NCBI GenBank assembly: GCA_030693065.1
Contig: JAUYBL010000002.1
Location: 1-64,000 of the forward strand
DNA length: 64,000 nucleotides
Reading direction: 5' to 3'
Origin: Methylococcaceae bacterium
Lineage (GTDB): Bacteria > Pseudomonadota > Gammaproteobacteria > Methylococcales > Methylomonadaceae
The stretch's first letter is position 1. Each line of letters opens with the position of its first letter. The notes beneath the pieces were generated by a model that saw nothing but the letters and a program-made list of their open reading frames with translations, was not told the DNA's origin and ran no database searches. The position numbers and the translations under genes are program-made. Shown in pieces: positions 44,106 through 62,727 of this stretch.

Positions 44106-46493
44106 ATGACAACTCCCAACAGTGCTAATACGTCGTTGACGACGGAAGAAGTCCATTTATTGAATGCCTATTGGAGTGCCTGTAATTACTTGGCAGCCGG
44201 CATGATTTATTTACAAGATAATCCTCTGCTAAAAGAACCACTTAAACCTGAACATATTAAAAATCGCTTGCTAGGTCATTGGGGTTCCAGTCCCGGTTTA
44301 AGTTTCATGTATGTGCATTTGAATCGGCTGATTAACAAATATGATCTCAATGCTTTATTTATGGCCGGTCCAGGTCATGGTGCGCCAGGTTTATTGGGGC
44401 CAATTTATCTGGAAGGCACTTATGCAGAGGTTTACCCCAACAAAGGCGAAGATGAAGAAGGCTTGTTGCAATTCTTCAAGGAATTTTCATTTCCAGGCGG
44501 TATTGGCAGTCATTGTACACCGGAGATGCCTGGCTCCATCCATGAAGGCGGTGAGCTGGGTTACAGTATTTCCCACGCTTATGGTGCCGCGTTTGATAAT
44601 CCAGACTTAATTGTGGCTGTGGCCGTAGGTGATGGCGAGTCAGAAACAGGTCCACTGGCTACATCTTGGCATAGCAATAAATTTCTCAACCCGATTCGTG
44701 ATGGTGCGGTGTTGCCGATACTCCATCTTAACGGTTATAAAATTAACAACCCGACCATACTGTCGCGGGTTTCTCACGAGGAGCTGGAGCAGCTGTTTCA
44801 AGGTTATGGATATACGCCTTACTTTGTTGAAGGCAGTGACCCGGAAACTATGCATCAACTGATGGCAAGCACGCTGGAAACCTGTGTGCTCGAGATTCGC
44901 CGAATTCAAGAACACGCACGCAGCACGGGTGATTCAACAAGACCGCGTTGGCCGATGATCGTTTTGCGCAGTCCCAAAGGCTGGACCGGACCAAAAGAAG
45001 TCGATGGTCACAAAGTGGAAGGTTTTTGGCGTTCACATCAAGTGCCATTGAGTAGCGTCAAAGAAAACCCTCAGCATCTTAAACAGTTGGAAGACTGGTT
45101 ACGCAGCTATAAGCCTGAGCAATTGTTTGATGCCAATGGCACGTTGATCCCAGCCCTGAAAGCCTTAGCGCCCAAAGGCAATCGCCGCATGAGTGCAAAC
45201 GCCCATACCAACGGTGGCTTGCTGCGTAAAGCATTACGCATGCCTGATTTTCGCGACTATGCGCTTGCATTGGAAAAACCCGGCAACGTTTCTGCTGAAA
45301 ACACCCGACCTCTGGGTAAGTTTTTACGAGACATCATGAGAGAAAACATGACTAACTTCCGCGTGTTTGGGCCAGATGAAAATAGCTCGAACAAACTGGA
45401 TGATGTGTACGCCGTCAGCAAAAAAACCTGGCTGGCTGATCGTTTTCCGGAAGATACCGATGGTGGCGAGTTATCTGCCGATGGTCGCGTCATGGAAATG
45501 TTGTCTGAACATACTTTGGAAGGTTGGCTGGAAGGCTATTTGTTAACGGGGCGTCACGGCTTTTTTTCCACCTATGAAGCGTTTGTGCACGTGATTGACT
45601 CGATGTTCAATCAACATGCCAAATGGTTGGCGATGGCTAAAGCTGTATCCTGGCGCGCGCCTGTTTCCTCACTCAACTTGCTGATTACCTCAACCGTTTG
45701 GCGCCAAGATCACAACGGTTTTACTCATCAAGACCCCGGCTTTTTGGATCTGGTCGTCAACAAAAGCTCCGAGGTGACACGGATCTATCTACCGCCCGAC
45801 GTCAATTGCTTACTGTCGGTTGCTAATCATTGTTTGAATAGCACCAATTACATCAACGTGATTGTCTGCGACAAACAAAAGCATCTCCAATACCTGGATA
45901 TGGATGCAGCGATCAAGCATTGCACCAAAGGCATCGGTATTTGGGAATGGGCCAGCAGTGATGGTAACGCCGAGCCTGACTTAGTAATGGCAAGTGCCGG
46001 GGATATTCCGACTAAAGAAGCATTAGCCGCCACCGCCTTGCTGCGTGAATTTTTTCCGGACATTAAAATTCGGTTTATTAACGTCGTGGATTTGTACAAA
46101 TTGGCACCGACCAGCGAGCATCCGCATGGCTTGTCAGATCGTGATTTTGATAGTCTGTTTACTTTGAATAAACCGATCATTTTCAATTTCCACGGTTATC
46201 CATGGCTGATTCACCGCCTGGCTTATCGTCGTAATAATCATAAAAACCTGCATGTGCGCGGCTACAAAGAAAAAGGCAGCATCAACACGCCACTGGAACT
46301 GGCCATTCAAAATGAAATCGACCGTTTCAGTCTGGCCATTGACGCTATTGATCGTATTCCAGCCCTGCAAATTTCAGGTGCGCATGTAAAACAAAAACTG
46401 CGTGATCGTCAGATTGAATGTCGGGCATATGCCTATGAGCATGGTACTGACAGACCGGAAGAAGATCATTGGCAATGGCCGGGTTCAGTTTAG
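44106..46493 (+). CDS. xfp: Xylulose-5-phosphate/fructose-6-phosphate phosphoketolase
   Basis: 795 residues, thiamine-dependent. It splits xylulose-5-P (and often fructose-6-P) with phosphate to acetyl-P and a triose- or tetrose-P. Motifs: [50 protein letters not shown] (ThDP) and [21 protein letters not shown]. Standard length. ackA begins 18 nt after its stop, giving acetate and ATP, a route used by ribulose-monophosphate methanotrophs to gain acetyl units without carbon loss. Regulation cannot be read from the sequence. Confidence 0.97.
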
Positions 46494-46511
46494 ACCAACC
46501 GACTAAGCATC

Positions 46512-47699
46512 ATGAGTGCCTGCCTGCTGGTCATTAATGCCGGTTCATCCAGCATCAAATTTACGCTGTATGGCTTGGTTGAAAATCATCATCTTGTTGT
46601 TGAATTAAACGGGCAAGTGGCGGGCATAGGCGATCAAGGGCAATTTACCGCCTCTGACGCTGCTGGCGACAGCCTAGTTGTCCAGCAGCTGCCGCCCCAC
46701 TCAGCAGATAAACACAGTCAGGCCTTTGAGGTTATTTATCAGTGGTTGTTAGGTTATTTACAGGGCCGGACGTTGGTAGCAGTGGGGCATCGAATTGTCC
46801 ATGGCGGGCAGCTTTATGCAGCCCCCGTGTTAATCGACGATCGAGTATTTAAGCATCTTGAAGCCCTAATCCCGCTGGCTCCACTGCATCAGCCACACAA
46901 TCTTGCCCCTATTCGTGAATTACAAAAGATTTCCCCGACCTTGCCGCAAATCGCCTGTTTTGATACGGCTTTCCATTTTACGCAACCAGAAGTTGCTCAT
47001 CGTCTTGCTTTACCGAGAAAGTTCACTGAGGCCGGTCTGCGGCGTTATGGTTTTCATGGGCTATCGTATGAATATATTGCCAATTTGCTCCCGCAATTAA
47101 AGCTTGCTGGTGCGCGCGTTATTGTTGCGCATCTTGGCAGTGGTGCCAGTCTTTGCGCGTTAAAAGATGGCCGAAGTGTGGCGACGAGCATGGGTTTTTC
47201 ACCATTAGATGGTTTGGTGATGGGCACACGCTGTGGCAGCCTTGATCCGGGTGTATTGTTGTATTTGATGGATCATTACCAAATGGATGCCCGAGCGCTG
47301 GAGAAATTGCTGTATTTTCAATCGGGATTGCTGGGGATTTCCGGTATTTCTTCCGATATGACTAGCTTGTTAGCCAGTTCAGATCCGCATGCCTGTGAAG
47401 CCGTTGAATCATTCGTGTATCGAGTAACACGCGAACTGGGTTCATTGGCCGCCGCGCTAGGTGGACTGGATGCGCTGATATTTACCGGCGGTATCGGTGA
47501 ACATTCTGTAATTATTCGCCAGCGTATTTGTCAGCAAGCCGCTTGGTTAGGCGTCGGTCTCGATGACAACGCCAACCAACAACAAGAACCGCGATTTTGC
47601 ATTTCAAAAGCAGCTTCTACAGTTGCTACATGGGTGGTACAAACCGATGAGAATCTGATGATTGCTCGTCATACCTTGAAATTACTCATTAGCAAATAG
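46512..47699 (+). CDS. ackA: Acetate kinase
   Basis: 395 residues. It converts acetyl-P plus ADP to acetate plus ATP and back. Motifs: VINAGSSSIKFTLY, HRIVHGG, FDTAFH, RRYGFHGLSYEY, VAHLGSGASLCALKDGRS (ATP site) and FTGGIGEHS. Complete and of usual length. It directly follows xfp, so acetyl-P from phosphoketolase is the natural substrate. No phosphotransacetylase gene is near, so how acetyl-CoA is fed, if at all, is unknown. Confidence 0.97.
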   Translation: MSACLLVINAGSSSIKFTLYGLVENHHLVVELNGQVAGIGDQGQFTASDAAGDSLVVQQLPPHSADKHSQAFEVIYQWLLGYLQGRTLVAVGHRIVHGGQLYAAPVLIDDRVFKHLEALIPLAPLHQPHNLAPIRELQKISPTLPQIACFDTAFHFTQPEVAHRLALPRKFTEAGLRRYGFHGLSYEYIANLLPQLKLAGARVIVAHLGSGASLCALKDGRSVATSMGFSPLDGLVMGTRCGSLDPGVLLYLMDHYQMDARALEKLLYFQSGLLGISGISSDMTSLLASSDPHACEAVESFVYRVTRELGSLAAALGGLDALIFTGGIGEHSVIIRQRICQQAAWLGVGLDDNANQQQEPRFCISKAASTVATWVVQTDENLMIARHTLKLLISK

Positions 47700-47871
47700 A
47701 CACCTGAATTATCAGTAGATTTTGATTAAACCTGTATAGGTTATTTGTATCAAAAGTAAGGCTTTTATTGTAATTTTATAAGCAAATGCTAATATTCTGC
47801 TTTTCAAGCATTTTTGATGATGCTTATTTCAAATGGTTCGCAAGTCAGAACGTTTTTTTGAGGAGAAAAGT

Positions 47872-49434
47872 ATGATTACAGACGGAGTAGTGGAATTATC
47901 ACGCTGGCAATTTGCGGTAACGTCTTTGTATCACTTTTTGTTTGTGCCATTGACGTTGGGGTTGTCGTTTTTGCTGGCGATTATGGAATCAACCTACGTC
48001 ATGACCGGCCGGGAGATTTACAAAGACATGACCCAGTTTTGGGGCAAGTTATTTGGGATCAATTTTGCACTGGGGGTAGCGACTGGGCTGACGATGGAAT
48101 TTCAGTTTGGTATGAACTGGTCATACTTTTCTCAGTATGTCGGTGATATTTTTGGGGCGCCGCTGGCGATTGAAGGCTTAATGGCTTTTTTTTTGGAGTC
48201 TACCTTTGTCGGCCTGTTTTTCTTTGGCTGGGACAAATTAGGTAAAGGTCAGCATCTGGTAGTTACTTGGCTGGTGGCTTTGGGCACCAATTTGTCCGCA
48301 TTGTGGATTTTGGTTGCCAATGGTTGGATGCAGAATCCGGTAGGTTCGGAATTCAACTATGAAACTATGCGTATGGAAATCACCAGCTTTGCTGATCTGA
48401 TATTCAATCCGGCGGCGCAGGTCAAGTTTGTGCATACCGTAGCCGCAGGTTACACCACTGCGTCGGCGTTTGTATTGGGTATCAGCGCGTATTACATGCT
48501 TAAAGGCCGTGATGCCGCATTTGCACAACGGTCGTACACCATCGCGGCGGGCTTTGGTCTGGCGGCGGTATTGTCAGTTATTGTCCTGGGTGATGAGAGC
48601 GGCTACACTGATGGTGAGGTGCAAAAAGCGAAACTAGCAGCTATAGAGGCAGAATGGCATACCGAAGAGCCGCCAGCGGCATTTACCGTCATTGGCATAC
48701 CTGATCAAGAAACGATGGAAACGCACTACGCGATTAAAATACCTTGGGTTCTTGGGCTGATTGGTACTCGATCAATTGACGAACCGATTACCGGGCTGTC
48801 AGAGATTTTGGTAAAAAATCGGTTGCGGGTGCGTGAGGGTATAAATGCTTACAAATTGTTACAGTTGTTAAGAGACGGTGATAAAAGTACTCAAACACGT
48901 GCTCAGTTTGAACACTACAGAAAGGACTTAGGTTATGGGTTATTACTTAAGCGTTATACCGACAATATAGCCGATGCCACTGATCAACAAATCGAGCAAG
49001 CTGCCCAGTACTCAATGCCGCGGGTATTACCGTTGTTTTGGACATTTAGAGTTATGGTCATCTGTGGTTTTATCAGCTTAGCCGTATTCGGCTTGGCGTT
49101 TGTTGCCAGTTCAATTCGTAAATGCAGGCAGACATGGCTGTTACGTTTAAGTCTGTACACCATTCCCTTGCCTTGGATTGCCTGTGAAATGGGCTGGTTT
49201 GTGGCAGAAGTAGGGAGGCAGCCTTGGACAATTGCCGAGATTTTACCTACCTTTTTAAGTGCCTCGTCTTTATCTGAGATGGATTTATATATCAGTCTGG
49301 CCGGTTATGTTGGCTTGTATACGGTGTTCTTGATCATAGAAATGTTTCTTATGCTCAAGTTCATTAAATTGGGCCCCAGCAGTTTGCATAAAGGCCGCTA
49401 TCACTTTGAAATCGCAGAAGGAGCAGTACGATGA
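47872..49434 (+). CDS. cydA: Cytochrome bd quinol oxidase subunit I
   Basis: About 520 residues from the ATG at 47872, with AGGAG 6 nt upstream; the frame is open from 47833 but lacks support there. Heme ligands are visible: His in [13 protein letters not shown] and His in [22 protein letters not shown] near the C-terminus and the long quinol (Q) loop are those of the E. coli-type long-Q enzyme. It oxidises quinol and reduces O2 with high affinity at low oxygen. cydB overlaps its end by 4 nt. It is in line with xfp-ackA, which suggests a low-oxygen module. Confidence 0.96.
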
Positions 49435-50570
49435 CATTCGATTACGAAACTATGCGTTTTATCTGGTGGGCGTTTTTAGGCGCGTTGCTGATCGGCTTCG
49501 CGATTACTGGCGGTGCTGATTTAGGAGTAGGCGCGCTATTACCTTTCTTGGGCAAAAACGATACCGAACGCCGGGTAATTATTAACTCAGTCGGTCCTAC
49601 TTGGGAAGGTAATCAAGTATGGTTTGTCACTGCTGGCGGTGCATTGTTTGCCGCTTGGCCAATGGCGTATGCAGTGGCTTTTTCTGGGTTTTATTTAGCG
49701 TTATTTTTGACGTTATCAGCCTTATGGCTACGTCCAATTGGTTTTGATTACCGCAGCAAATTGGCTAATCCTATATGGCGCAATAGCTGGGATTGGGCAT
49801 TATTTGTTGGTGGTTTTGTACCCTCGTTAATTTTCGGTGTGGCGTTCGGCAATTTGTTAATTGGAGTGCCATTTCAGCTCGATACTGACATGCGCATTTT
49901 TTATCAAGGTAGCTTTTGGCAACTGCTCTCGCCTTTTGCTTTGCTGGCTGGAGTTGTTAGTTTGTCTATGTTACTTACGCACGGTGCTGTTTATTTACAG
50001 ATGAAATCGATTGATGTCATCAATGAGCGCAGTAAAAAAACGGTGATTTTATTTACCGTATTGACGCTAGTCGCTTTTGCATTAGCGGGTGTTTGGGTGG
50101 CCAATATTGACGGTTATCATGTCGCGACTGAAGTTCTACATGACGGGCCATCAAATCCACTTTTGAAGTTTGTGCATAAAGAAACCGGACTTTGGCTAGA
50201 CAATTACCGCCTTTACCCTTTGTTATGGGGGATTCCGGGCTTGGCTTTCGTGACTGGATTTGCCACGTTATTGTTATCAAAATTTGATCGTCCCGGCTTA
50301 GCTTTTATCAGCAGTTCTGTGACTATTGCGGCAATTATATTGACCGCCGGCATTGCTATGTTTCCTTTTCTTATCCCCTCTAGCTTATCTCTTAATAGTT
50401 CTCTAACGGTGTGGGATGCAAGTTCAAGTCTCACCACTTTAAAGATCATGTTTTGGGTGACGGTAATATTTTTGCCGATAGTTATTGTCTATACCAGCTG
50501 GGTATTCCGCGTACTGCGCGGCAAAATCACCGTTGAACATATTGTTGCTAACGATCATACAGCGTATTAG
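49431..50570 (+). CDS. cydB: Cytochrome bd quinol oxidase subunit II
   Basis: 379 residues, eight to nine membrane helices. [59 protein letters not shown] contains the family's ITGG-DLG and [10 protein letters not shown] signatures. It pairs with CydA to bind hemes. The ATGA overlap with cydA and the 9-nt gap to cydX show a single cydABX transcript. Normal length. Confidence 0.96.
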
Positions 50571-50579
50571 GAGGCTGCT

Positions 50580-51161
50580 ATGTGGTATTTCACCTGGATA
50601 TTAGGATTATTACTTGCCTGTTCATTGGGGATTATTAATGTACTTAGATTGGAAGCGCAGGAAGCTTGGGATAAGGAGCATATCCCGGTTGATGCATTAA
50701 CGCAGCTGATAACACGTGACGCCATGCTGGTCAGATTAAGAGAAAAAATTGAAAATACCCGGCGTAGCGGGTTTCCGTTTTCTCTGGTTTTTATCAGTCT
50801 AACTGAGTTTAAGAATAAGCATAATCTAAGTCCTCATGAGATGGATTCGACATTACGCAGTGTGGTCGATTGTCTTAAGGAAGATATTCGTAATGGTCTT
50901 GATATTGCCGCACGTATGGATGAGCAAGATTTTGTAATTGCCATGCCTGGTGCGCCCTTGCACAGAGCTGAACAGGTCGCCTTAAAAGTTAAAAATGATA
51001 TTTTTGCAAAAGTAAGAGCGCCTATTGATTTAGCAGTTGAGATCAATGTTGGCGTGGCGGAATATTCCGAGCATGCGGTTGAATTTGGTCAGGAAATTGA
51101 AACGATTGAGCATGAGGTAAACGAGCTGCTTCGAATTGCCATGGCAAAAAGCTCAAATTAG
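50580..51161 (+). CDS. cydX: CydX (YbgT)-like subunit fused to a degenerate GGDEF domain
   Basis: 193 residues. The first ~30 read MWYFTWILGLLLACSLGIIN, nearly the E. coli CydX sequence (normally a 37-residue peptide that stabilises cytochrome bd). Instead of stopping, the frame goes on as a GGDEF-fold domain: DALTQLITRDAMLVRLREKI near 38, ARMDEQDFVIAMPG near 111 where GGDEF should be (MDEQD at 113-117), and EINVGVAEYSE at the usual SIGVA strand. The metal-binding DxDxF reads SLTEF, so cyclase activity is very unlikely. GGAGG stands just before the ATG, 9 nt after cydB. It could be a receptor or partner-binding domain on the oxidase. Confidence 0.9.
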   Translation: MWYFTWILGLLLACSLGIINVLRLEAQEAWDKEHIPVDALTQLITRDAMLVRLREKIENTRRSGFPFSLVFISLTEFKNKHNLSPHEMDSTLRSVVDCLKEDIRNGLDIAARMDEQDFVIAMPGAPLHRAEQVALKVKNDIFAKVRAPIDLAVEINVGVAEYSEHAVEFGQEIETIEHEVNELLRIAMAKSSN

Positions 51162-51167
51162 TCCAGG

Positions 51168-51211
51168 ACTGCCATAAAAAAACCGGCTTATGCCGGTTTT
51201 TTTATGGCAGT
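51168..51211. terminator. Strong bidirectional Rho-independent terminator after cydX
   Basis: A perfect 20-bp stem (51168-51187 with 51192-51211) around a TTAT loop, with CCGGC/GCCGG core and A7/T7 tracts built into the stem. It starts 6 nt past the cydX-GGDEF stop and ends the cydABX operon. Confidence 0.9.
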
Positions 51212-55258: not shown

Positions 55259-55453
55259 TATTAAAGCAATTGTTGACTAAGCTTAAACGTTTTGACTACT
55301 GACCATAGAGAATGGTGAAAAACCAAGCACTTCGATGGTTCGCCAAGCCCCATTACAGGGTGCGAACAGTGCCTTGTATAGTTTCAGATTCGGTTCCAGA
55401 TTCCCTGTATTTTTTTGTTTCGCGTTGATAACTGGGTAATACCAAATAATAAA

Positions 55454-55999
55454 ATGAATTTTATCCACACGACATTGTTGCTGATTTGCTTTAGCATCTG
55501 CCTGCCGGTGGGCTTGGCTGTGGCTGATGAAGACAATGCCGAATTTAAAGTCAAAGCAGGTTATTTATACAATTTTACGAAATTTGTAACTTGGCCAAAA
55601 GACGACTCAACGACCTTTAATATTTGTATTTTGGGTATCGATCCCTTCGGTGAGTTGATAGATCCCATCGAAAAAAGGACAGCACTTAATTTGCCTATTA
55701 AGCTGTTCAGAATTAACACGATCAGTAATACACAACGTTGTCATATCGTTTATATAGGTTCAGGCACCAGGGAACAAGTTGTCCAAAAGGGCGCGTTGAT
55801 TATTCGCGATATGGGTAAAACCTTGTCGGTGGGTGAGGGCGAGGCCTTTACAGAAGGCTTAGGCATGATTGGTTTTGTTAGCAGGGAGGGCAGAATAAAG
55901 CTCCAAGTGAATCTAAAAAACCTACAACAAAGTGGCTTGGCAGTCAGTGCTAAGTTGCTTGAAGTTGCTGAAATTGTAGGAGGTAACGGTCATGATTAA
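55454..55999 (+). CDS. YfiR/DUF4154-family periplasmic protein
   Basis: About 181 residues from the ATG at 55454, which opens a signal peptide (IHTTLLLICFSICLPVGLAVA). The mature part begins FKVKAGYLYNFTKFVTWP and contains ICILGIDPFGE and LSVGEGEAFTEGLGMIGFV, the YfiR/DUF4154 signature. In Pseudomonas YfiR is a periplasmic repressor of the diguanylate cyclase YfiN. The next gene overlaps by 8 nt and encodes a CHASE8-like GGDEF/EAL protein, so the same partnership is probable. Two cysteines are visible (NICILG, RCHIVY). No YfiB lipoprotein gene is near. Confidence 0.87.
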   Translation: MNFIHTTLLLICFSICLPVGLAVADEDNAEFKVKAGYLYNFTKFVTWPKDDSTTFNICILGIDPFGELIDPIEKRTALNLPIKLFRINTISNTQRCHIVYIGSGTREQVVQKGALIIRDMGKTLSVGEGEAFTEGLGMIGFVSREGRIKLQVNLKNLQQSGLAVSAKLLEVAEIVGGNGHD

Positions 56000-58394
56000 G
56001 TTGATTCGTAACCTGCCAATCAATCGTAAGTTGTTATTAATACTGCTTTTTTCTAGTGTGACCTCGTTATTATTTGCTGGTGTGCTTTTGGTTGTGTTGG
56101 AAATTTCAGAATTTCAACGTGCTACCAGCGAGGATCTTTCCGCTTTTGCTAAAATTGTTGGCAATAGAAGTAGCGCAGCTTTACTGTTTGAAGATAAAAA
56201 AGTAGCTCAAGAAAACCTTGCTGTGCTACATACCTTGCCAGCAGTTCAAGTATCTTGTCTTTATGATGCTCATAATGTTGTCTTTGCTGAGTTACATAAG
56301 GATCAACAACCGTCCTGGAATTGCCCCGCGTTAATCAAAGCAGAAAAGACTCGTTTTGAATTTGGGCATCTCGCTGTTATTCAACCAATAATTGAAGATG
56401 GTAGCGAAATAGGCACTGTTTATATTCACGCAGATTTAAGCGCCGGTTACTGGCAAAAAATTCAATTTACCGGATTGATATTTTTGGTGTTAATTGGTGT
56501 ATCGATACTCACATTCTTTTTGTCGACACCGCTACTTAAATTAATTTCTGCACCGATAAAAAAACTGGTAAGTACTGTTAAACAGATTAGTGAGACTCAG
56601 GATTTCTCTTTACGCGCCGTTAAAGTAAATAATGATGAAACAGGAGTTCTGGTTGATGCATTCAATGCATTGATTGCAACAGTAAACAACCAAAATAAAG
56701 CGTTAACCCGGGCAAAAAACCGTTATTTGGCGCTTTATGATGATAATCCAACCATGATTTTTAACCTAAATGAGTTTGGGGTGATTTTGTCAGTAAATCG
56801 TACCGGCGCTAAACATTTAGGTTCGGCTGTTAAGGATTTACAAGGTTGTTCAATCTTCGATTTTGTCCATATTGAAGACATGTCCGGCGTGCATCAACTA
56901 CTAGAAGATTGCATGTTCCGTTCGATGCAAGCGCATAAACAAGATTTTAGACAGATTCGTCATAACGGGCAGGTTATTTGGGTTAGAGCAACGGGTAAGA
57001 AAATTACCGATGATGTCGGGCAAATAAGCTATTTGTTGGTATGCGAAGATATTACTGAAGCGCGCCTACTCAGTGAAAAAATTGCCTATCAGGCCAGTCA
57101 TGATTCCTTAACTGGTCTCGCCAATCGTAGTCAGTTTGATAACTACATTAAGCAGTCTGTGGCTTCGGCACATGCCGATAATTTACATCATGTGTTGTGC
57201 TATTTAGACTTGGATCAGTTTAAGGTTGTAAATGATACTTGCGGTCACTTGGCAGGGGATGAATTACTTAGACAGCTTGGCGATCTGCTTAAAAGAAATA
57301 TTCGCAGGCATGATTTTGTTGCCCGCTTGGGTGGCGATGAGTTCGGTATTTTGATGCATGATTGCTTATTAAGTGAGGCATTTGTCGCCTGCGAAAAACT
57401 GCGCGATATGGTTAGAGACTTCCATTTCGCGTGGGAAGATAGAAGTTTCACCATAGGTGTCAGTATCGGAATTTCTGCAATAACCGGCACCAGCAGTAGT
57501 GCTGTTGATCTACTCAAAGAAGCCGATGCTGCCTGTTATGCCGCCAAAGACAAAGGCCGCAATAGAGTGCATGTTTACCGTCCTGACGATGAAGAATTAG
57601 CTATGCGTCAGGGTGAAATGCAATGGGTAGAAAGAATTCAACAAGGTTTGGCACAGAATCGTTTTTGTTTGTATGGACAACCTATTGTTGCAATCGGCCA
57701 TGAGGAAGAAGGCTTACATTTTGAAACCTTGGTGCGTTACCAAGATGAAAATGGTCGAATAATTCCACCGGGCGCATTTTTACCAGCTGCCGAGCGATAT
57801 AACCTAGCATCAGAACTTGATCGTTGGGTTGTTAGCCATTTATTTGCTTGGATGGCACAAAAAGAAGGCTTTCTTCAGCAACTCTCGGTTTGCTCGGTGA
57901 ATTTGTCAGGTGTATCAATGTCAGATGAGACCATGCTGGCGTTTATCTCAGAACAATTTAATATTTGGGGGATTCCCGCCCATAAAATTTGTTTTGAGGT
58001 AACAGAAACAGCTGCTATTGCCAATTTATCTTATGCCACCAATTTTATTCATCAATTACGTGACAAAGGCTGTTCGTTCTCACTGGATGATTTCGGTAGC
58101 GGCTTATCATCCTTTGCTTATTTGAAAAACTTGCCAGTCGATTATCTGAAAATTGATGGCCTATTCGTTAAAGACATACTTGATGACAAAGTTGATTTGG
58201 CAATGGTCAAGTCAATTAACGAAGTAGGGCATGTGATGGATAAAAAAACTATTGCTGAGTTCGTTGAAAATGAGCAGATTTATAATTTACTTAATGTCTT
58301 GGGAGTTGATTATGCCCAAGGTTACGGTATTGGCAAGCCGGTGCCGTTGGACGAGTTGAAGCTGATAAAACCATTTATGGTGTTGCCGAAATGA
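55992..58394 (+). CDS. Membrane CHASE8-like/HAMP/PAS/GGDEF/EAL protein (YfiN-like)
   Basis: 800 residues. Membrane helix 1 (about 15-35), a periplasmic domain of the CHASE8 kind as in YfiN (to ~150), helix 2 (~158-180), HAMP (~185-235), PAS (~250-355), GGDEF (~370-525) with RLGGDEFGIL intact, and EAL (~545-795) with HFETLVRY (the E of EAL), EVTETAA, DDFGSGLSSFAYLK and KIDGLF. Both c-di-GMP synthesis and breakdown may be possible. It starts inside the yfiR-like gene and its end overlaps the first TonB receptor by 4 nt, so receptor, regulator and enzyme are coupled. Confidence 0.9.
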   Translation: MIKLIRNLPINRKLLLILLFSSVTSLLFAGVLLVVLEISEFQRATSEDLSAFAKIVGNRSSAALLFEDKKVAQENLAVLHTLPAVQVSCLYDAHNVVFAELHKDQQPSWNCPALIKAEKTRFEFGHLAVIQPIIEDGSEIGTVYIHADLSAGYWQKIQFTGLIFLVLIGVSILTFFLSTPLLKLISAPIKKLVSTVKQISETQDFSLRAVKVNNDETGVLVDAFNALIATVNNQNKALTRAKNRYLALYDDNPTMIFNLNEFGVILSVNRTGAKHLGSAVKDLQGCSIFDFVHIEDMSGVHQLLEDCMFRSMQAHKQDFRQIRHNGQVIWVRATGKKITDDVGQISYLLVCEDITEARLLSEKIAYQASHDSLTGLANRSQFDNYIKQSVASAHADNLHHVLCYLDLDQFKVVNDTCGHLAGDELLRQLGDLLKRNIRRHDFVARLGGDEFGILMHDCLLSEAFVACEKLRDMVRDFHFAWEDRSFTIGVSIGISAITGTSSSAVDLLKEADAACYAAKDKGRNRVHVYRPDDEELAMRQGEMQWVERIQQGLAQNRFCLYGQPIVAIGHEEEGLHFETLVRYQDENGRIIPPGAFLPAAERYNLASELDRWVVSHLFAWMAQKEGFLQQLSVCSVNLSGVSMSDETMLAFISEQFNIWGIPAHKICFEVTETAAIANLSYATNFIHQLRDKGCSFSLDDFGSGLSSFAYLKNLPVDYLKIDGLFVKDILDDKVDLAMVKSINEVGHVMDKKTIAEFVENEQIYNLLNVLGVDYAQGYGIGKPVPLDELKLIKPFMVLPK

Positions 58395-60550
58395 GAATGT
58401 GTCGAGCTTTAGCAAAATATTTAAGCGTAATTTGCTTTTCTAGTGTTGGCGAGCTTAGCGCTGCTGAAAACATCGACGATTTTTTTGATAAATCACCCGC
58501 AGAATTAGCATCTACACCAGTGACTATAGCGACTGGTACCGCCAAACCACTTGCTGAGTCAGCGGCAGTTACCACAGTAATTACTGCTGATCAGATTAAA
58601 TCAATGGGTGCAACCGAGTTGCATGAAGTTCTGGAAACAGTGCCTGGCATGCATGCCAGTGTTCAGGGTTTATCCGGCGATTATAATTACTCCTTACGTG
58701 GTATCCGCAACGCTACCAACTCCCAGACATTATTCTTGTTAAACGGCACACGTATTACTACGCCGTTTCGCGGTACATTGATGACTGGCCTGGAGCTGCC
58801 AATTGATGCCATTCAACAAGTTGAGGTTATAAGAGGACCGGGGTCGGCATTGTATGGTGCGGATGCTTTTGCTGGTGTTATCAACATTATTACTAAAAAA
58901 GCTAAAGATATTAACGGCGCTACCGTTGGTGGCAGGGTAGGAGATCATGATACCCAAAGCGGCTGGGGACAATATGGCACTGAATGGGCCGGTTGGGATG
59001 TAGCAACCAGCCTTCAATATCAGCATACCGGCGGTGATGGTAGCCGAGTTCTTTCAGCGGATGCGCAGACAGTGCTTGATAATAAAACCGGCACTCAGGC
59101 CTCGCACGCACCTGGTGCATTGAATTCGCGGCTGGAGTCCTTAAACGCTCACCTGAATTTACAACGTAAACACTGGGACATCGGTTTCTGGGCCTTTAAT
59201 GCTGAAGGTGATATGCGTGCGGGTGTGGCGGGTGCGTTGGACCCGAATGGCGTAGCAAACGGGGAACAATATTTAGGGGATGTGCGGTTTTCGACTGAAG
59301 ACTGGTCTGAAAATTGGGAGTTATTAGCTCACGCCAGTTATTTACATAACAATGTGCAGTCCAAGGCTAAGTTGTTTCCTGACGGTGCTATGTTGCCATT
59401 AGATGCCGCGGGTAATATAAATCCGTCTGGAACAACAATAGCAATATTTCCTTGGGGTGCTAAAGATTATGCCAGCCAAGTTGAGGATATTCCTGCAGTT
59501 GAGATCAGTGCTATTTATCGTGGCTTGGACAAGCACTTATTCCGTTTTTCAACAGGGTTTCGATACGAATCGATTACTACCAGTGAAAGTAAAAATTATG
59601 GTGCAGGCGTAATTGATGTAAATTCGCTACCTCCGTCTCCTTTACCAGGGATTGGATTTGTTAACGGTGGTTTAACCACTACTACAGGTACACCTTATAT
59701 TTATTTACCCGACACCCAACGCACAATCTGGTCTTTTGTTGCTCAAGATGAATGGCAATTGGCAGATAATTGGCAGTTGACTGCCGGTTTGCGTTACGAC
59801 GAGTATTCGGATTTTGGTGGCACCATCAACCCGCGTGCCGCGTTGGTGTGGAATATCAATACTCAGATAACATCAAAATTACTGTATGGTCGTGCGTTTA
59901 GAGCACCCAACTTTTCCGAGCAAGGCAATCAAAACAATCCAGTGTTATTAGGAAATAGAAGCTTAAAACCCGAAACGATTAATACTTATGAATGGGCGAT
60001 TGATTATCATCCATTTTCCTCGCTTAGAACTGCCGCGAATGTTTACTACTATAAAATCGATGAGCATATAGATTTAGTGAAAAACGCTAATAATACCGGC
60101 TCCACTTTTCAAAATAATGCTGATCAACAAGGTGTGGGGACAGAGCTAGAGGCTAATTGGCAAGTCAACGAACAGTGGCGATTGATGGGTAACTATGCAT
60201 GGCAGCATACTAAACTTGACCATCAAAATGTCAGTCAAGTTGCTGGTGTGCCGGAACATCATGTGTACTTTGCTACCGCTTGGCAATTCTTACCCAAATG
60301 GCAATTACAACCGCAGATTAACTGGATCGGCAGCAGGATAAATCCAATTCCAGGCAACGGCACATTGGATGATTACGAAACAATAGATTTCACCTTAAGA
60401 GGTAAAAAAATATTTGGACATCTTAATTTGACTGCTTCTTTGCGAAATGCATTTGATGTCACTCCTTATGAGCCAGCGGCTGTCGAGATAGGTGGTAATT
60501 TCCCCATGCCGGGCAGAAGTTTTTATCTTGAAGCTTCAATCAACTTTTAA
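58391..60550 (+). CDS. TonB-dependent outer-membrane receptor (first of tandem pair)
   Basis: 719 residues. Leader peptide, then FDKSPAELASTPVTIATGTAKPL, where PVTIATGT is a candidate TonB-box region. The plug domain follows (VVTVITADQIKSMGA-like, EVLETVPGMHASVQG, YSLRGIRN, IEVIRGPGSALYGADAFAGVINIIT), then a 22-strand barrel. It ends with the aromatic YLEASINF, required for outer-membrane insertion. Its substrate is unknown; it is a clear paralogue of the next gene. It shares a stop/start overlap on both sides, linking it to the c-di-GMP protein. Confidence 0.93.
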   Translation: MRMCRALAKYLSVICFSSVGELSAAENIDDFFDKSPAELASTPVTIATGTAKPLAESAAVTTVITADQIKSMGATELHEVLETVPGMHASVQGLSGDYNYSLRGIRNATNSQTLFLLNGTRITTPFRGTLMTGLELPIDAIQQVEVIRGPGSALYGADAFAGVINIITKKAKDINGATVGGRVGDHDTQSGWGQYGTEWAGWDVATSLQYQHTGGDGSRVLSADAQTVLDNKTGTQASHAPGALNSRLESLNAHLNLQRKHWDIGFWAFNAEGDMRAGVAGALDPNGVANGEQYLGDVRFSTEDWSENWELLAHASYLHNNVQSKAKLFPDGAMLPLDAAGNINPSGTTIAIFPWGAKDYASQVEDIPAVEISAIYRGLDKHLFRFSTGFRYESITTSESKNYGAGVIDVNSLPPSPLPGIGFVNGGLTTTTGTPYIYLPDTQRTIWSFVAQDEWQLADNWQLTAGLRYDEYSDFGGTINPRAALVWNINTQITSKLLYGRAFRAPNFSEQGNQNNPVLLGNRSLKPETINTYEWAIDYHPFSSLRTAANVYYYKIDEHIDLVKNANNTGSTFQNNADQQGVGTELEANWQVNEQWRLMGNYAWQHTKLDHQNVSQVAGVPEHHVYFATAWQFLPKWQLQPQINWIGSRINPIPGNGTLDDYETIDFTLRGKKIFGHLNLTASLRNAFDVTPYEPAAVEIGGNFPMPGRSFYLEASINF

Positions 60551-62727
60551 TGAGAATAGTGGTTAAGTTGTCAACAGCTAATCAAATTGAAAAGCAGCGA
60601 ATTAAATTTACAATAACTCTAATTTGCTCAGCAACGTTGCTCGTGTCTAATGCCGCTGTCTCTGAAGAGATGGACATATTTTTTGATAAATCTCCCGCTG
60701 AATTAGCCGCTATGCCAGTCACAATAGCTACTGGTACTGCAACGCCATTATTACAGGCGGCGGCAGTAACCTCGGTAATTACTGCTGAACAAATCAAAGC
60801 CATGGGAGCGACCGAGTTACATGAGGTGTTGGATACCGTGCCAGGTATGCACGCCAGTGTGCAATCATCCACTGGCGATGTTAATTACACAGTACGAGGC
60901 ATGCGCAATGCGACCAACTCGCAACTGTTGGTGCTATTAAACGGTACTCGCACTACTGTTCCTTATCTCGGCTCAAATATGACCGGGATGGAACTGCCAA
61001 TTGAGGCAATTCAGAAAATAGAAGTAATCCGTGGTCCAGGTTCAGCGCTATATGGCGCCGATGCTTTTGCCGGGGTAATTAATATCATCACTAAAAAAGC
61101 CAAGGATATTGCTGGAGTCAATGTGGGTGGACGAGTAGGTGACCATGATTCTCAAAGTGGTTGGGGACAATATGGTGAGCAATGGGCAGGATGGGATGTT
61201 GCGGCTAATTTTCAATATCAAAACACTGGTGGCGATCAAGGACGCGTGCTGAAATCAGACCAGCAAACAGTTTTAGACAAAGCTTTTGGAAGCAATGCCT
61301 CACATGCTCCGGGAGCTTTGAACACGCAGTATAAAACCTTCAATGGACATCTTAATCTCCAGCGTAAACATTGGGATCTTGGTTTTTGGGCTTTCAATGC
61401 TGAAGGTGGAACACGCGCAGGTAATACTGTTGCTTTAGATCCTAATGGCAAAGTCAATGCTGAGCAATATTTGGGAGATGTACGATTTTCAACGGAAGAT
61501 TGGTTTGAACAGTGGGAGTTTTTAGCACATGCCAGCTATTTAAGGGCTGATTTTCAAGCAAATTTGCAAGTGTTTCCAGACAACGCAGTTGTGAGTATAG
61601 ACAGTGATGGTAATACCTTACCCAGAGCTAATGCTATTGGTACCCGCACCTTTGTAAATGGGATTAATGCAAGCGTGGGGCGTGTTGAAGATATTCCTGC
61701 TCTCGAGTTGAGTGCTATTTTTAAAGGCTGGAATAACCATTTACTTCGCGTGACTACAGGTTTTCGTTATGAGCAGATCACCACAAGTGACTATAGAAAT
61801 TTTGGCAAAGGTATTATTGATAGTAACTCACCGGCAGTGATTGATGGCACTTTAACCAATATCACAGGTACACCTTATGCTTATTTGGCGGATACGCAGC
61901 GGAATATTTTGTCGGCTGCATTTCAGGATGAATGGCAGTTAGCCGATGATTGGCAGCTGACTGCGGGTGTGCGTTACGATCATTACTCTGATTTTGGCGG
62001 TACGGTTAATCCTCGAGCTGCATTGGTGTGGAACATTAACCAAAAACTCACCACAAAATGGTTATATGGTCAGGCATTTCGGGCACCAGCATTTGCCGAG
62101 CTGGGCGCACAAAATAATCCGGTGCGTTTGGGAAATGAAAATTTAAAACCGGAAACGATTCAAACCTACGAGTGGGCGTTCGATTATCGCCCGTTCTCAT
62201 CACTCAGAACTGCAGTGAATCTTTACTATTATCAAATTAAAGATCTCATCGCGCTTATGCCTGATAACGCTAAAGCAACGTCAACCTTTCAAAATACAGG
62301 TAAGCAAGATGGTTACGGAACCGAATTTGAATGGCACTGGCAGGTCAATACACAATGGTCAGCGGTAGGAAATTATGCTTGGCAGAATGCAATTAATCAG
62401 CAAATCAACAAACGAGTGACAGGTGTGCCCGAGCATCAGGTGTATGCAGCAGCCATCTGGCAGTTTTTGCCAAAATGGCAACTACAGCCACAGATTAACT
62501 GGATCGGTAGCCGCATCAATCCAATTACAGAAAATGGGCCGTTAAATGATTACCAAACCATTGATTTCACCCTAAGGGGCAAAAAAATATACGGACAGCT
62601 CAATATTGCGGCATCGTTACGTAATGCTTTTGATGCGACCCCAAGTGAACCCGTAGGTGCAAAAATTGGTGATAATTTTCCAATGCCTGGACGAAGCTTT
62701 TACCTTGAAGCCTCAATCCATTTTTGA
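60550..62727 (+). CDS. TonB-dependent outer-membrane receptor (second of tandem pair)
   Basis: 725 residues, aligned along its whole length with the preceding receptor: FDKSPAELAAMPVTIATGTATPL, VPGMHASVQSS, VRGMRNATNSQLLVLLNGT, RGPGSALYGADAF, and the C-terminal YLEASIHF. It starts at the last base of the first receptor (TAATG). Differences cluster in predicted extracellular loops (for example ANAIGTRTFVNGINAS versus GTTIAIFPWGAK), as if the copies bind different ligands. It arose by tandem duplication. Substrate unknown. Confidence 0.93.
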   Translation: MRIVVKLSTANQIEKQRIKFTITLICSATLLVSNAAVSEEMDIFFDKSPAELAAMPVTIATGTATPLLQAAAVTSVITAEQIKAMGATELHEVLDTVPGMHASVQSSTGDVNYTVRGMRNATNSQLLVLLNGTRTTVPYLGSNMTGMELPIEAIQKIEVIRGPGSALYGADAFAGVINIITKKAKDIAGVNVGGRVGDHDSQSGWGQYGEQWAGWDVAANFQYQNTGGDQGRVLKSDQQTVLDKAFGSNASHAPGALNTQYKTFNGHLNLQRKHWDLGFWAFNAEGGTRAGNTVALDPNGKVNAEQYLGDVRFSTEDWFEQWEFLAHASYLRADFQANLQVFPDNAVVSIDSDGNTLPRANAIGTRTFVNGINASVGRVEDIPALELSAIFKGWNNHLLRVTTGFRYEQITTSDYRNFGKGIIDSNSPAVIDGTLTNITGTPYAYLADTQRNILSAAFQDEWQLADDWQLTAGVRYDHYSDFGGTVNPRAALVWNINQKLTTKWLYGQAFRAPAFAELGAQNNPVRLGNENLKPETIQTYEWAFDYRPFSSLRTAVNLYYYQIKDLIALMPDNAKATSTFQNTGKQDGYGTEFEWHWQVNTQWSAVGNYAWQNAINQQINKRVTGVPEHQVYAAAIWQFLPKWQLQPQINWIGSRINPITENGPLNDYQTIDFTLRGKKIYGQLNIAASLRNAFDATPSEPVGAKIGDNFPMPGRSFYLEASIHF

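Follow-up and report, generated by a model that had tools for sequence, protein, structure and literature searches.

In a 64,000-nucleotide stretch of a Methylococcaceae bacterium genome (assembly GCA_030693065.1, contig JAUYBL010000002.1, positions 1 to 64,000; hereafter, the window), we found a gene directly after cydB that encodes the small cytochrome bd subunit CydX continuous with a degenerate GGDEF domain. We collected 48 distinct fused proteins of this type, 188–209 residues long, all of which were intact. The sequences show an intact CydX helix at a fixed distance from a GGDEF fold without catalytic residues, an arrangement that selection has maintained in one CydB cluster of Methylococcales. 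We propose, at about even chance, that the fusion is a third cytochrome bd subunit whose cytoplasmic pseudo-GGDEF head serves as a docking head tied to the cyclic di-GMP (c-di-GMP) network. The gene and its parts are as follows.

50580..51161, + strand: cydX-GGDEF fusion gene, a single uninterrupted frame with an ATG start, 193 residues plus stop
50580..50660, + strand: CydX part, residues 1–27, transmembrane helix, E25 kept (PF08173, TIGR02106)
50661..50687, + strand: helical stalk and short linker, residues 28–36, of fixed length in the 48 homologues (alignment, models)
50688..51122, + strand: degenerate GGDEF domain, residues 37–181 (PF00990, 1.8e-15; structure matches)

The first-pass annotation, made from the letters and translations only, had described one frame that joins an almost E. 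coli-like CydX to a GGDEF-fold domain, and both halves were confirmed by profile matches above the cut-offs. Residues 1–27 matched the Pfam family YbgT_YccB (PF08173) with 54.7 bits (cut-off 26.2; E-value 1e-14), and the NCBIfam CydX model TIGR02106 gave 50 bits against a cut-off of 31.6. Residues 37–181 matched Pfam GGDEF (PF00990) with 57.5 bits (cut-off 23.8), and the NCBIfam GGDEF domain model TIGR00254 gave 54.4 bits against 37.4; the top NCBIfam match was the SiaD model NF038266, whose 56.8 bits are far below its cut-off of 290. The comparison with E. coli was fair, as phmmer aligned residues 1–29 to E. coli CydX (6rko_X) at 4.4e-7. All 48 fused proteins matched both Pfam families (E ≤ 0.01). 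Since a CHASE8-PAS-GGDEF-EAL protein encoded elsewhere in the window scored 146.5 bits for its GGDEF domain, the head of the fusion is, by its profile score, clearly GGDEF-related yet diverged. Thus, the protein exceeds the curated cut-off of the CydX profile and its gene directly follows cydAB, whereas its length of 193 residues lies outside the range of about 30–70 residues of a small CydX protein.

We then predicted structures with AlphaFold for the window protein, with a mean predicted local distance difference test (pLDDT) score of 81.8 and a predicted template modelling (pTM) score of 0.69, and for a divergent homologue (L014; mean pLDDT 75.4, pTM 0.65). Both models consist of a single helix at residues 2–33 followed by a GGDEF fold. 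In structure searches with the window model, GGDEF proteins made up all 50 matches listed by Foldseek and all 50 listed by VIA-align (Z 17.4–20.9). The GGDEF assignment was therefore accepted by PF00990, TIGR00254, the predicted structure and the structure searches. No gap was present across the first 70 aligned residues of the 48 proteins; the CydX helix, the stalk and the start of the GGDEF domain thus stand in a fixed register, as would be expected if the link were firm and not a loose tether.

Conservation and distribution of the fusion

Substitution rates were estimated by the Nei–Gojobori method with our own script. In the 222 of 1128 pairs with a usable synonymous rate (dS of 0.05–1.2), which are not independent of each other, the ratio of nonsynonymous to synonymous rates (dN/dS) of the GGDEF part had a median of 0.18 (quartiles 0.16–0.21, highest 0.68); the median for the CydX part, where defined, was 0.04. 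These ratios place the GGDEF part under purifying selection. Amino acid identity to three distant fused loci (L013–L015) was 27–30% in the GGDEF part, 64–78% in the CydX part and 62–63% in CydB.

The window genome gave one CydA match and one CydX match, and the fused subunit thus appears to be the sole CydX available to its sole bd oxidase. CydA was present in all 64 of the genomes with a full-length fusion described below, 49 of which had a single match; the extra matches in the remaining genomes were in some cases fragments of one gene and in others a second oxidase.

A search for the same fusion beside cydAB in other methanotrophs, as the first-pass annotation had suggested, was positive. 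When 61 genomes (the window's own and 60 relatives) were searched with the protein, 15 gave a match running from residue 1 to residues 166–193 without internal stops; CydX was found in 34 of these genomes, and in the 19 of them that lack such a match the best CydX lay in frames of 36–108 codons. Among 301 genomes of the order Methylococcales, 185 had CydX, 66 matched the fusion profile at 1e-25, and 64, belonging to 14 genera, carried the full-length fusion (residue 1 to 188 or beyond). A further genome matched the profile partly (G614, residues 57–170), and counting it gives 15 of 50 genera. The stops flagged inside the full-length rows of G010 and G610 are the ends of the genes themselves. 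In G578 (L220), the fused gene is broken after about 65 residues and two more copies of its C-terminal half lie nearby, reflecting either gene decay or an assembly error.

In the named GTDB collection, at least 482 loci encode a relative, as found with search patterns from the CydX part only, and 16 of the best 80 carry the fusion. Thirteen of the 16 are labelled Methylococcaceae, Methylococcales, Methylobacter or Methylomonas, and two only Gammaproteobacteria. The other is a 3-kb contig labelled Epsilonproteobacteria, which is probably misbinned; 150 of the 189 residues of its fused protein are identical to a Methylococcales member. The records of Methylobacter tundripaludum SV96 (L042) and Ca. 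Methylobacter oryzae KRF1 (L036), both of which carry the fusion, have no metagenome-assembly label. The fusion directly follows cydB in 15 of the 16 loci, and the sixteenth (L044) has only 80 upstream bases.

CydX was also detected in 58 of 369 genomes of a class sample and in 98 of 398 genomes of a phylum sample, and none of these CydX-bearing genomes other than the window genome had the fusion. Open-frame lengths for PF08173 run from stop to stop, and a CydX of 40 residues can lie in a frame of hundreds of codons (up to 982). The 17 loci of these two samples with long frames (98 codons or more) encode a CydX of 36–56 residues, and the remaining frames are shorter than 98 codons. Other CydX fusions suggested by long frames were accordingly rejected, the extra length lying upstream of the CydX start. 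In seven loci of the order with frames of 151–189 codons (L175–L181), CydX is likewise short (46–51 residues). As far as the samples reach, the fusion is limited to one lineage, Methylococcales.

Two genomes of the order showed distinct arrangements. The single-contig genome G552 has two fused cyd operons (L186 and L187), each followed by a PsiE-like gene (named by eye) that also occurs after a short CydX in L223 and L234. G003 (L183), which belongs to the window's genus, shows no fusion; its cyd operon is of another make-up, in which a 51-residue CydX with two cysteines in its tail is followed by a 70-residue hydrophobic protein and an FAD (flavin adenine dinucleotide)-oxidoreductase-like gene (both named by eye).

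Residues lost and kept in the GGDEF head

To define the active-site and ligand-site residues, we compared the 48 fused proteins with 40 canonical GGDEF segments, one each from 40 of 44 loci, which were chosen for GG[DE]EF and therefore contain this motif by construction. For the roles of canonical residues we relied on the diguanylate cyclase literature, and we take residue 89 to be the counterpart of the base-binding aspartate. Three sites were located in the head.

50796..50810, + strand: former metal site DxDxF, SLTEF in the window, residues 73–77 (alignment to canonical segments)
50889..50903, + strand: counterpart of the inhibitory site, RxGxD, RNGLD in the window, residues 104–108 (alignment)
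50919..50933, + strand: former GGDEF motif, DEQDF in the window, residues 114–118 (alignment to canonical domains)

The metal site had been read correctly as SLTEF in the first-pass annotation, whereas the GGDEF motif, read there as MDEQD, lies one residue further on in the alignment and becomes DEQDF. Residue 73, an aspartate in 40/40 canonical segments, is serine in 42 and asparagine in 6 of the fused proteins; the second aspartate of DxD is kept in only 3, and the GG motif in none. Thus, neither GG(D/E)EF nor the first metal aspartate of DxDxF, as required of an active diguanylate cyclase, is present. The columns of the C-terminal AKxxGRN motif are gaps in 30–45 of the 48 fused rows. The loss of GG and the metal aspartate, together with the C-terminal GTP (guanosine triphosphate)-site columns being mostly absent, argues against use of GTP by the head. 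Residue 89 is D in 40, E in 5 and N in 3 of the 48. At residue 81, 29 proteins have N, and the window protein has H.

Most of the core of the GGDEF fold is kept in the fused family. At the inhibitory site (I-site), R104, D108 and R112 are each present in 48/48 proteins and G106 in 45/48. The motif is RxxxD throughout, one residue longer than the RxxD of a canonical I-site, and the extra column is gapped in 40/40 canonical segments; in one row (RREID), a second R occupies the position three residues ahead of the D. With R and D invariant and the extra residue between them, the sequence speaks neither for nor against binding of c-di-GMP. R104 and D108 are conserved in the canonical segments as well (39/40 and 40/40, respectively). 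E33, K56, N59, E87, G106, E161 and V180 occur in 44–48 of the fused proteins and in at most 7 of the 40 canonical segments. The conservation of E33, K56, N59, E87, E161 and V180 suggests a new constrained role, although part of it may reflect shared ancestry.

Probable placement and possible roles of the head at the oxidase

In a cryo-electron microscopy study of E. coli bd-I, the CydX helix lies against CydA helices 1, 5 and 6, the C-terminal part of CydX is exposed to the cytoplasm, and Glu25 is described as a float (PMC6853902). Residue 25 is glutamate in 48/48 fused proteins. If the E. coli structure is a guide, the CydX helix of the fusion would dock on CydA in the same manner, its C-terminus would face the cytoplasm, and the transmembrane helix would extend as a stalk, like the connector between input and GGDEF domains in diguanylate cyclases. 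The dead domain would then be a docking head firmly held under CydA on a continuous helix. Docking would most likely occur through GGDEF–GGDEF contacts, with either a diguanylate cyclase or the head of a neighbouring oxidase as the partner, and would tie the oxidase, in its assembly, clustering or activity, to the c-di-GMP network of the cell; a ligand bound at the RxGxD site might modulate it. We favour a docking head because GGDEF domains that are catalytically dead can still act through contacts: E. coli CdgI, which has a degenerate GGDEF domain, and others are reported to bind other GGDEF domains, and CdgI to bind c-di-GMP (PMC5635695). The window genome (G000) has 21 GGDEF-type domain matches, the fusion included.

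The first-pass annotation had proposed that an inactive GGDEF domain is anchored to the oxidase, perhaps to sense c-di-GMP or GTP or to dock a regulator, and that respiration could thereby be tied to second-messenger state. The first part agrees with the lost catalytic motifs, the covalent CydX part and the conservation of the protein; anchoring is very probable, since the gene directly follows cydB in all but one of the named loci and the window genome has no other CydX or CydA match. The second part, like the sensing or docking, stays a conjecture about what the anchored head could do. A specific version, in which the head, by binding either c-di-GMP or a diguanylate cyclase, directly gates cytochrome bd assembly or activity in these methanotrophs through the contact of the continuous CydX helix with CydA, is tentative and, in our estimate, rather doubtful.

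Several points weigh against a docking head in the cytoplasm. PMC4325964 and PMC5322542 put the C-terminus of CydX in the periplasm, whereas PMC6853902 puts it in the cytoplasm; the fusion bears on this printed disagreement, and the existence in nature of a fusion with a domain from a cytoplasmic family favours the cytoplasm. The fast drift of the GGDEF part over long distances would also allow a mainly structural role under loose constraint. In many genomes of the order, CydX is present in its short form only (CydX in 185 of 301, the full-length fusion in 64), and therefore the enzyme itself does not depend on the head. Finally, both models are less confident at the join (residues ~31–40), where the block means are 67 for the window protein and 58 for L014, and therefore the predicted angle of the head is not reliable.

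Two other roles, one purely structural and one in c-di-GMP reception, are each about half as likely as a docking head. If purely structural, the head would act as a passive cap or in dimerisation, stabilising CydA/CydB or pairing two oxidases with no link to signalling. This would be consistent with the kept fold and lost GG and metal motifs, with the fast drift, and with the requirement of CydX for function of the E. coli enzyme (PMC6005532). However, relatives with short CydX in the order have cydAB-cydX operons without a head, and the polar residues K56, N59, E87 and E161, found in 44–47 of the 48 fused proteins and rare in canonical segments, are conserved more than we would look for in a filler. 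As a c-di-GMP receptor, the head would use R104 and D108 of RxGxD as an inhibitory-type site, and binding would pull the CydX helix and tune the oxidase. Sensing at this site is possible: the R and D of the inhibitory site are kept, R112 is likewise invariant, and the helix is joined to the head without gaps; CdgI, with a dead active site (A-site) and an intact I-site, can bind c-di-GMP (PMC5635695). On the other hand, the additional residue beyond RxxD in all 48 proteins (glycine in 45) alters the spacing of the site, and because canonical segments conserve R104 and D108 too, the conservation of these two residues is not specific to this family.

Binding of GTP or a related nucleotide such as guanosine pentaphosphate (pppGpp) without turnover, by which the head would report the energy or stringent state to the oxidase, is very improbable. 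The acidic residue 89 (D or E in 45 of 48) and N81 in 29 proteins would suit it, and PleD structures with guanosine tetraphosphate (ppGpp) and pppGpp exist according to the entry titles of 9g85 and 9g86, but the metal aspartate and GG are found in 0/48, the AKxxGRN columns are largely gapped, and residue 81 of the window protein is H. That the fusion reflects an error of sequencing or assembly, or two genes joined by read-through and now decaying, can in practice be dismissed even though many members are metagenome assemblies and G578 has the gene broken up: the 48 distinct homologues are intact, two named records (L036 and L042) carry no metagenome-assembly label, and the gene is under purifying selection. 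None of the three outcomes that the first-pass annotation had named as refuting was observed, since no collected homologue has a stop after ~37 residues, homologues with this architecture exist, and the profiles accept the GGDEF fold.

Similar to E. coli bd-I CydX (YbgT), the window protein has the 27–29 N-terminal residues, E25 and a gene directly after cydB; E. coli CydX ends at 37 residues, whereas the window protein adds ~160 residues that form the GGDEF fold. Longer tails of CydX are known. A 2014 survey describes a variable C-terminal region of up to 44 residues and reports that CydX remained functional in its test when the tail was replaced (PMC4325964), and a CydX of 71 residues is predicted in Azotobacter chroococcum (PMC4465626). 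The fusion shows that this variable tail is able to carry a whole folded domain.

Among GGDEF proteins, CdgI resembles the fusion in that a GGDEF fold whose A-site is dead is joined to a different N-terminal part; CdgI has an intact I-site, whereas the fusion has RxGxD and its N-terminal part is an enzyme subunit. The head also weakly matches the C-terminal part of ammonium transporter chains (8qj3, 8qj4 and 8qpf; E 0.0067–0.007), which we take to be transporter–cyclase fusions; the host in those chains is a transporter, whereas the fusion has a subunit of a respiratory oxidase as host and its GGDEF domain is degenerate. SiaD, WspR and PleD share the predicted fold and the helix leading into the domain, but the fusion is without the GG motif, the metal aspartate, the canonical I-site spacing and a sensor domain of its own.

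No description of a CydX-GGDEF fusion was found in the open-licence literature searched; the papers listed for CydX together with GGDEF mention the two terms in separate contexts. In the available text of the CydX survey (PMC4325964), the words "fusion" and "fused" do not occur, and in that of a study of bd evolution (PMC5322542), "GGDEF" does not occur and the single "fused" concerns CydA with c-type cytochromes. We regard the fusion as a known subunit in a new form, not as a system of a new kind. Domains of the c-di-GMP type are best known for control of motility and biofilms. A stable fusion of a GGDEF domain to a respiratory complex would make a direct link between signalling and oxygen respiration testable in methane-consuming bacteria, and respiration may be tied to internal signalling in those methanotrophs that bear it.

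Operon context and origin of the fusion

The genes are ordered cydA, cydB, cydX-GGDEF, with a nine-base gap between the end of cydB and the start of the fusion. The other features of the operon are listed below.

47833..49434, + strand: cydA, cytochrome bd subunit I (PF01654, Cyt_bd_oxida_I, 9.1e-170)
49431..50570, + strand: cydB, cytochrome bd subunit II (PF02322, Cyt_bd_oxida_II, 1.4e-98)
50569..50574, + strand: AGGAGG, which overlaps the stop codon of cydB and is likely the ribosome-binding site for the fusion (read in the sequence)
51168..51211, + strand: strong hairpin with A/T flanks, likely operon terminator (folding energy)

The segment 51160–51216 has a folding energy of −36.4 kcal/mol (z −9.2). 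The hairpin at 51168..51211 was not among the matches of a consensus terminator scan, in our opinion because its T run lies within the stem.

To trace the origin of the fusion, we built a CydB tree from 100 of 156 CydB rows, after dropping 16 rows shorter than 360 residues (four of them fused) and thinning the outgroups. The tree requires two changes when the broken G578 copy is treated as short and one change when it is counted as fused, and the branch separating 46 fused rows has weak support (71/45). A gammaproteobacterium with a short CydX (L076) adjoins the fused branch. On this tree, a single origin of the fusion is likely. CydB of Desulfobacterales with a short CydX (L058 and L069) was placed close to the fused Methylococcales group, which may reflect transfer between phyla.

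No GGDEF gene that could have preceded the fusion was seen by eye among open reading frames up to 2.5 kb downstream of short CydX in six loci (L058, L069, L076, L083, L086 and L100), nor on the same strand within 1.6 kb in 14 short-CydX loci of L221–L235, some of which end sooner. In a class-wide profile search for the source of the GGDEF domain (E ≤ 1e-20), the sole match from residue 1 was the window's own, and the other matches were GGDEF stretches in other frames.

Directly upstream of the cydAB-fusion operon, at 44106–47699, lie genes for phosphoketolase (xfp) and acetate kinase. The same pair is located upstream in a contig of the same genus (L031), and it was not found at the other named fused loci, in which up to ~2.2 kb before cydA was examined. 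Further downstream, the region 55415–62727 encodes a YfiR/HmsC-like protein (DUF4154), the CHASE8-PAS-GGDEF-EAL protein, whose GGDEF motif is canonical, and a tandem pair of similar TonB-type receptors (labelled as receptors by eye).
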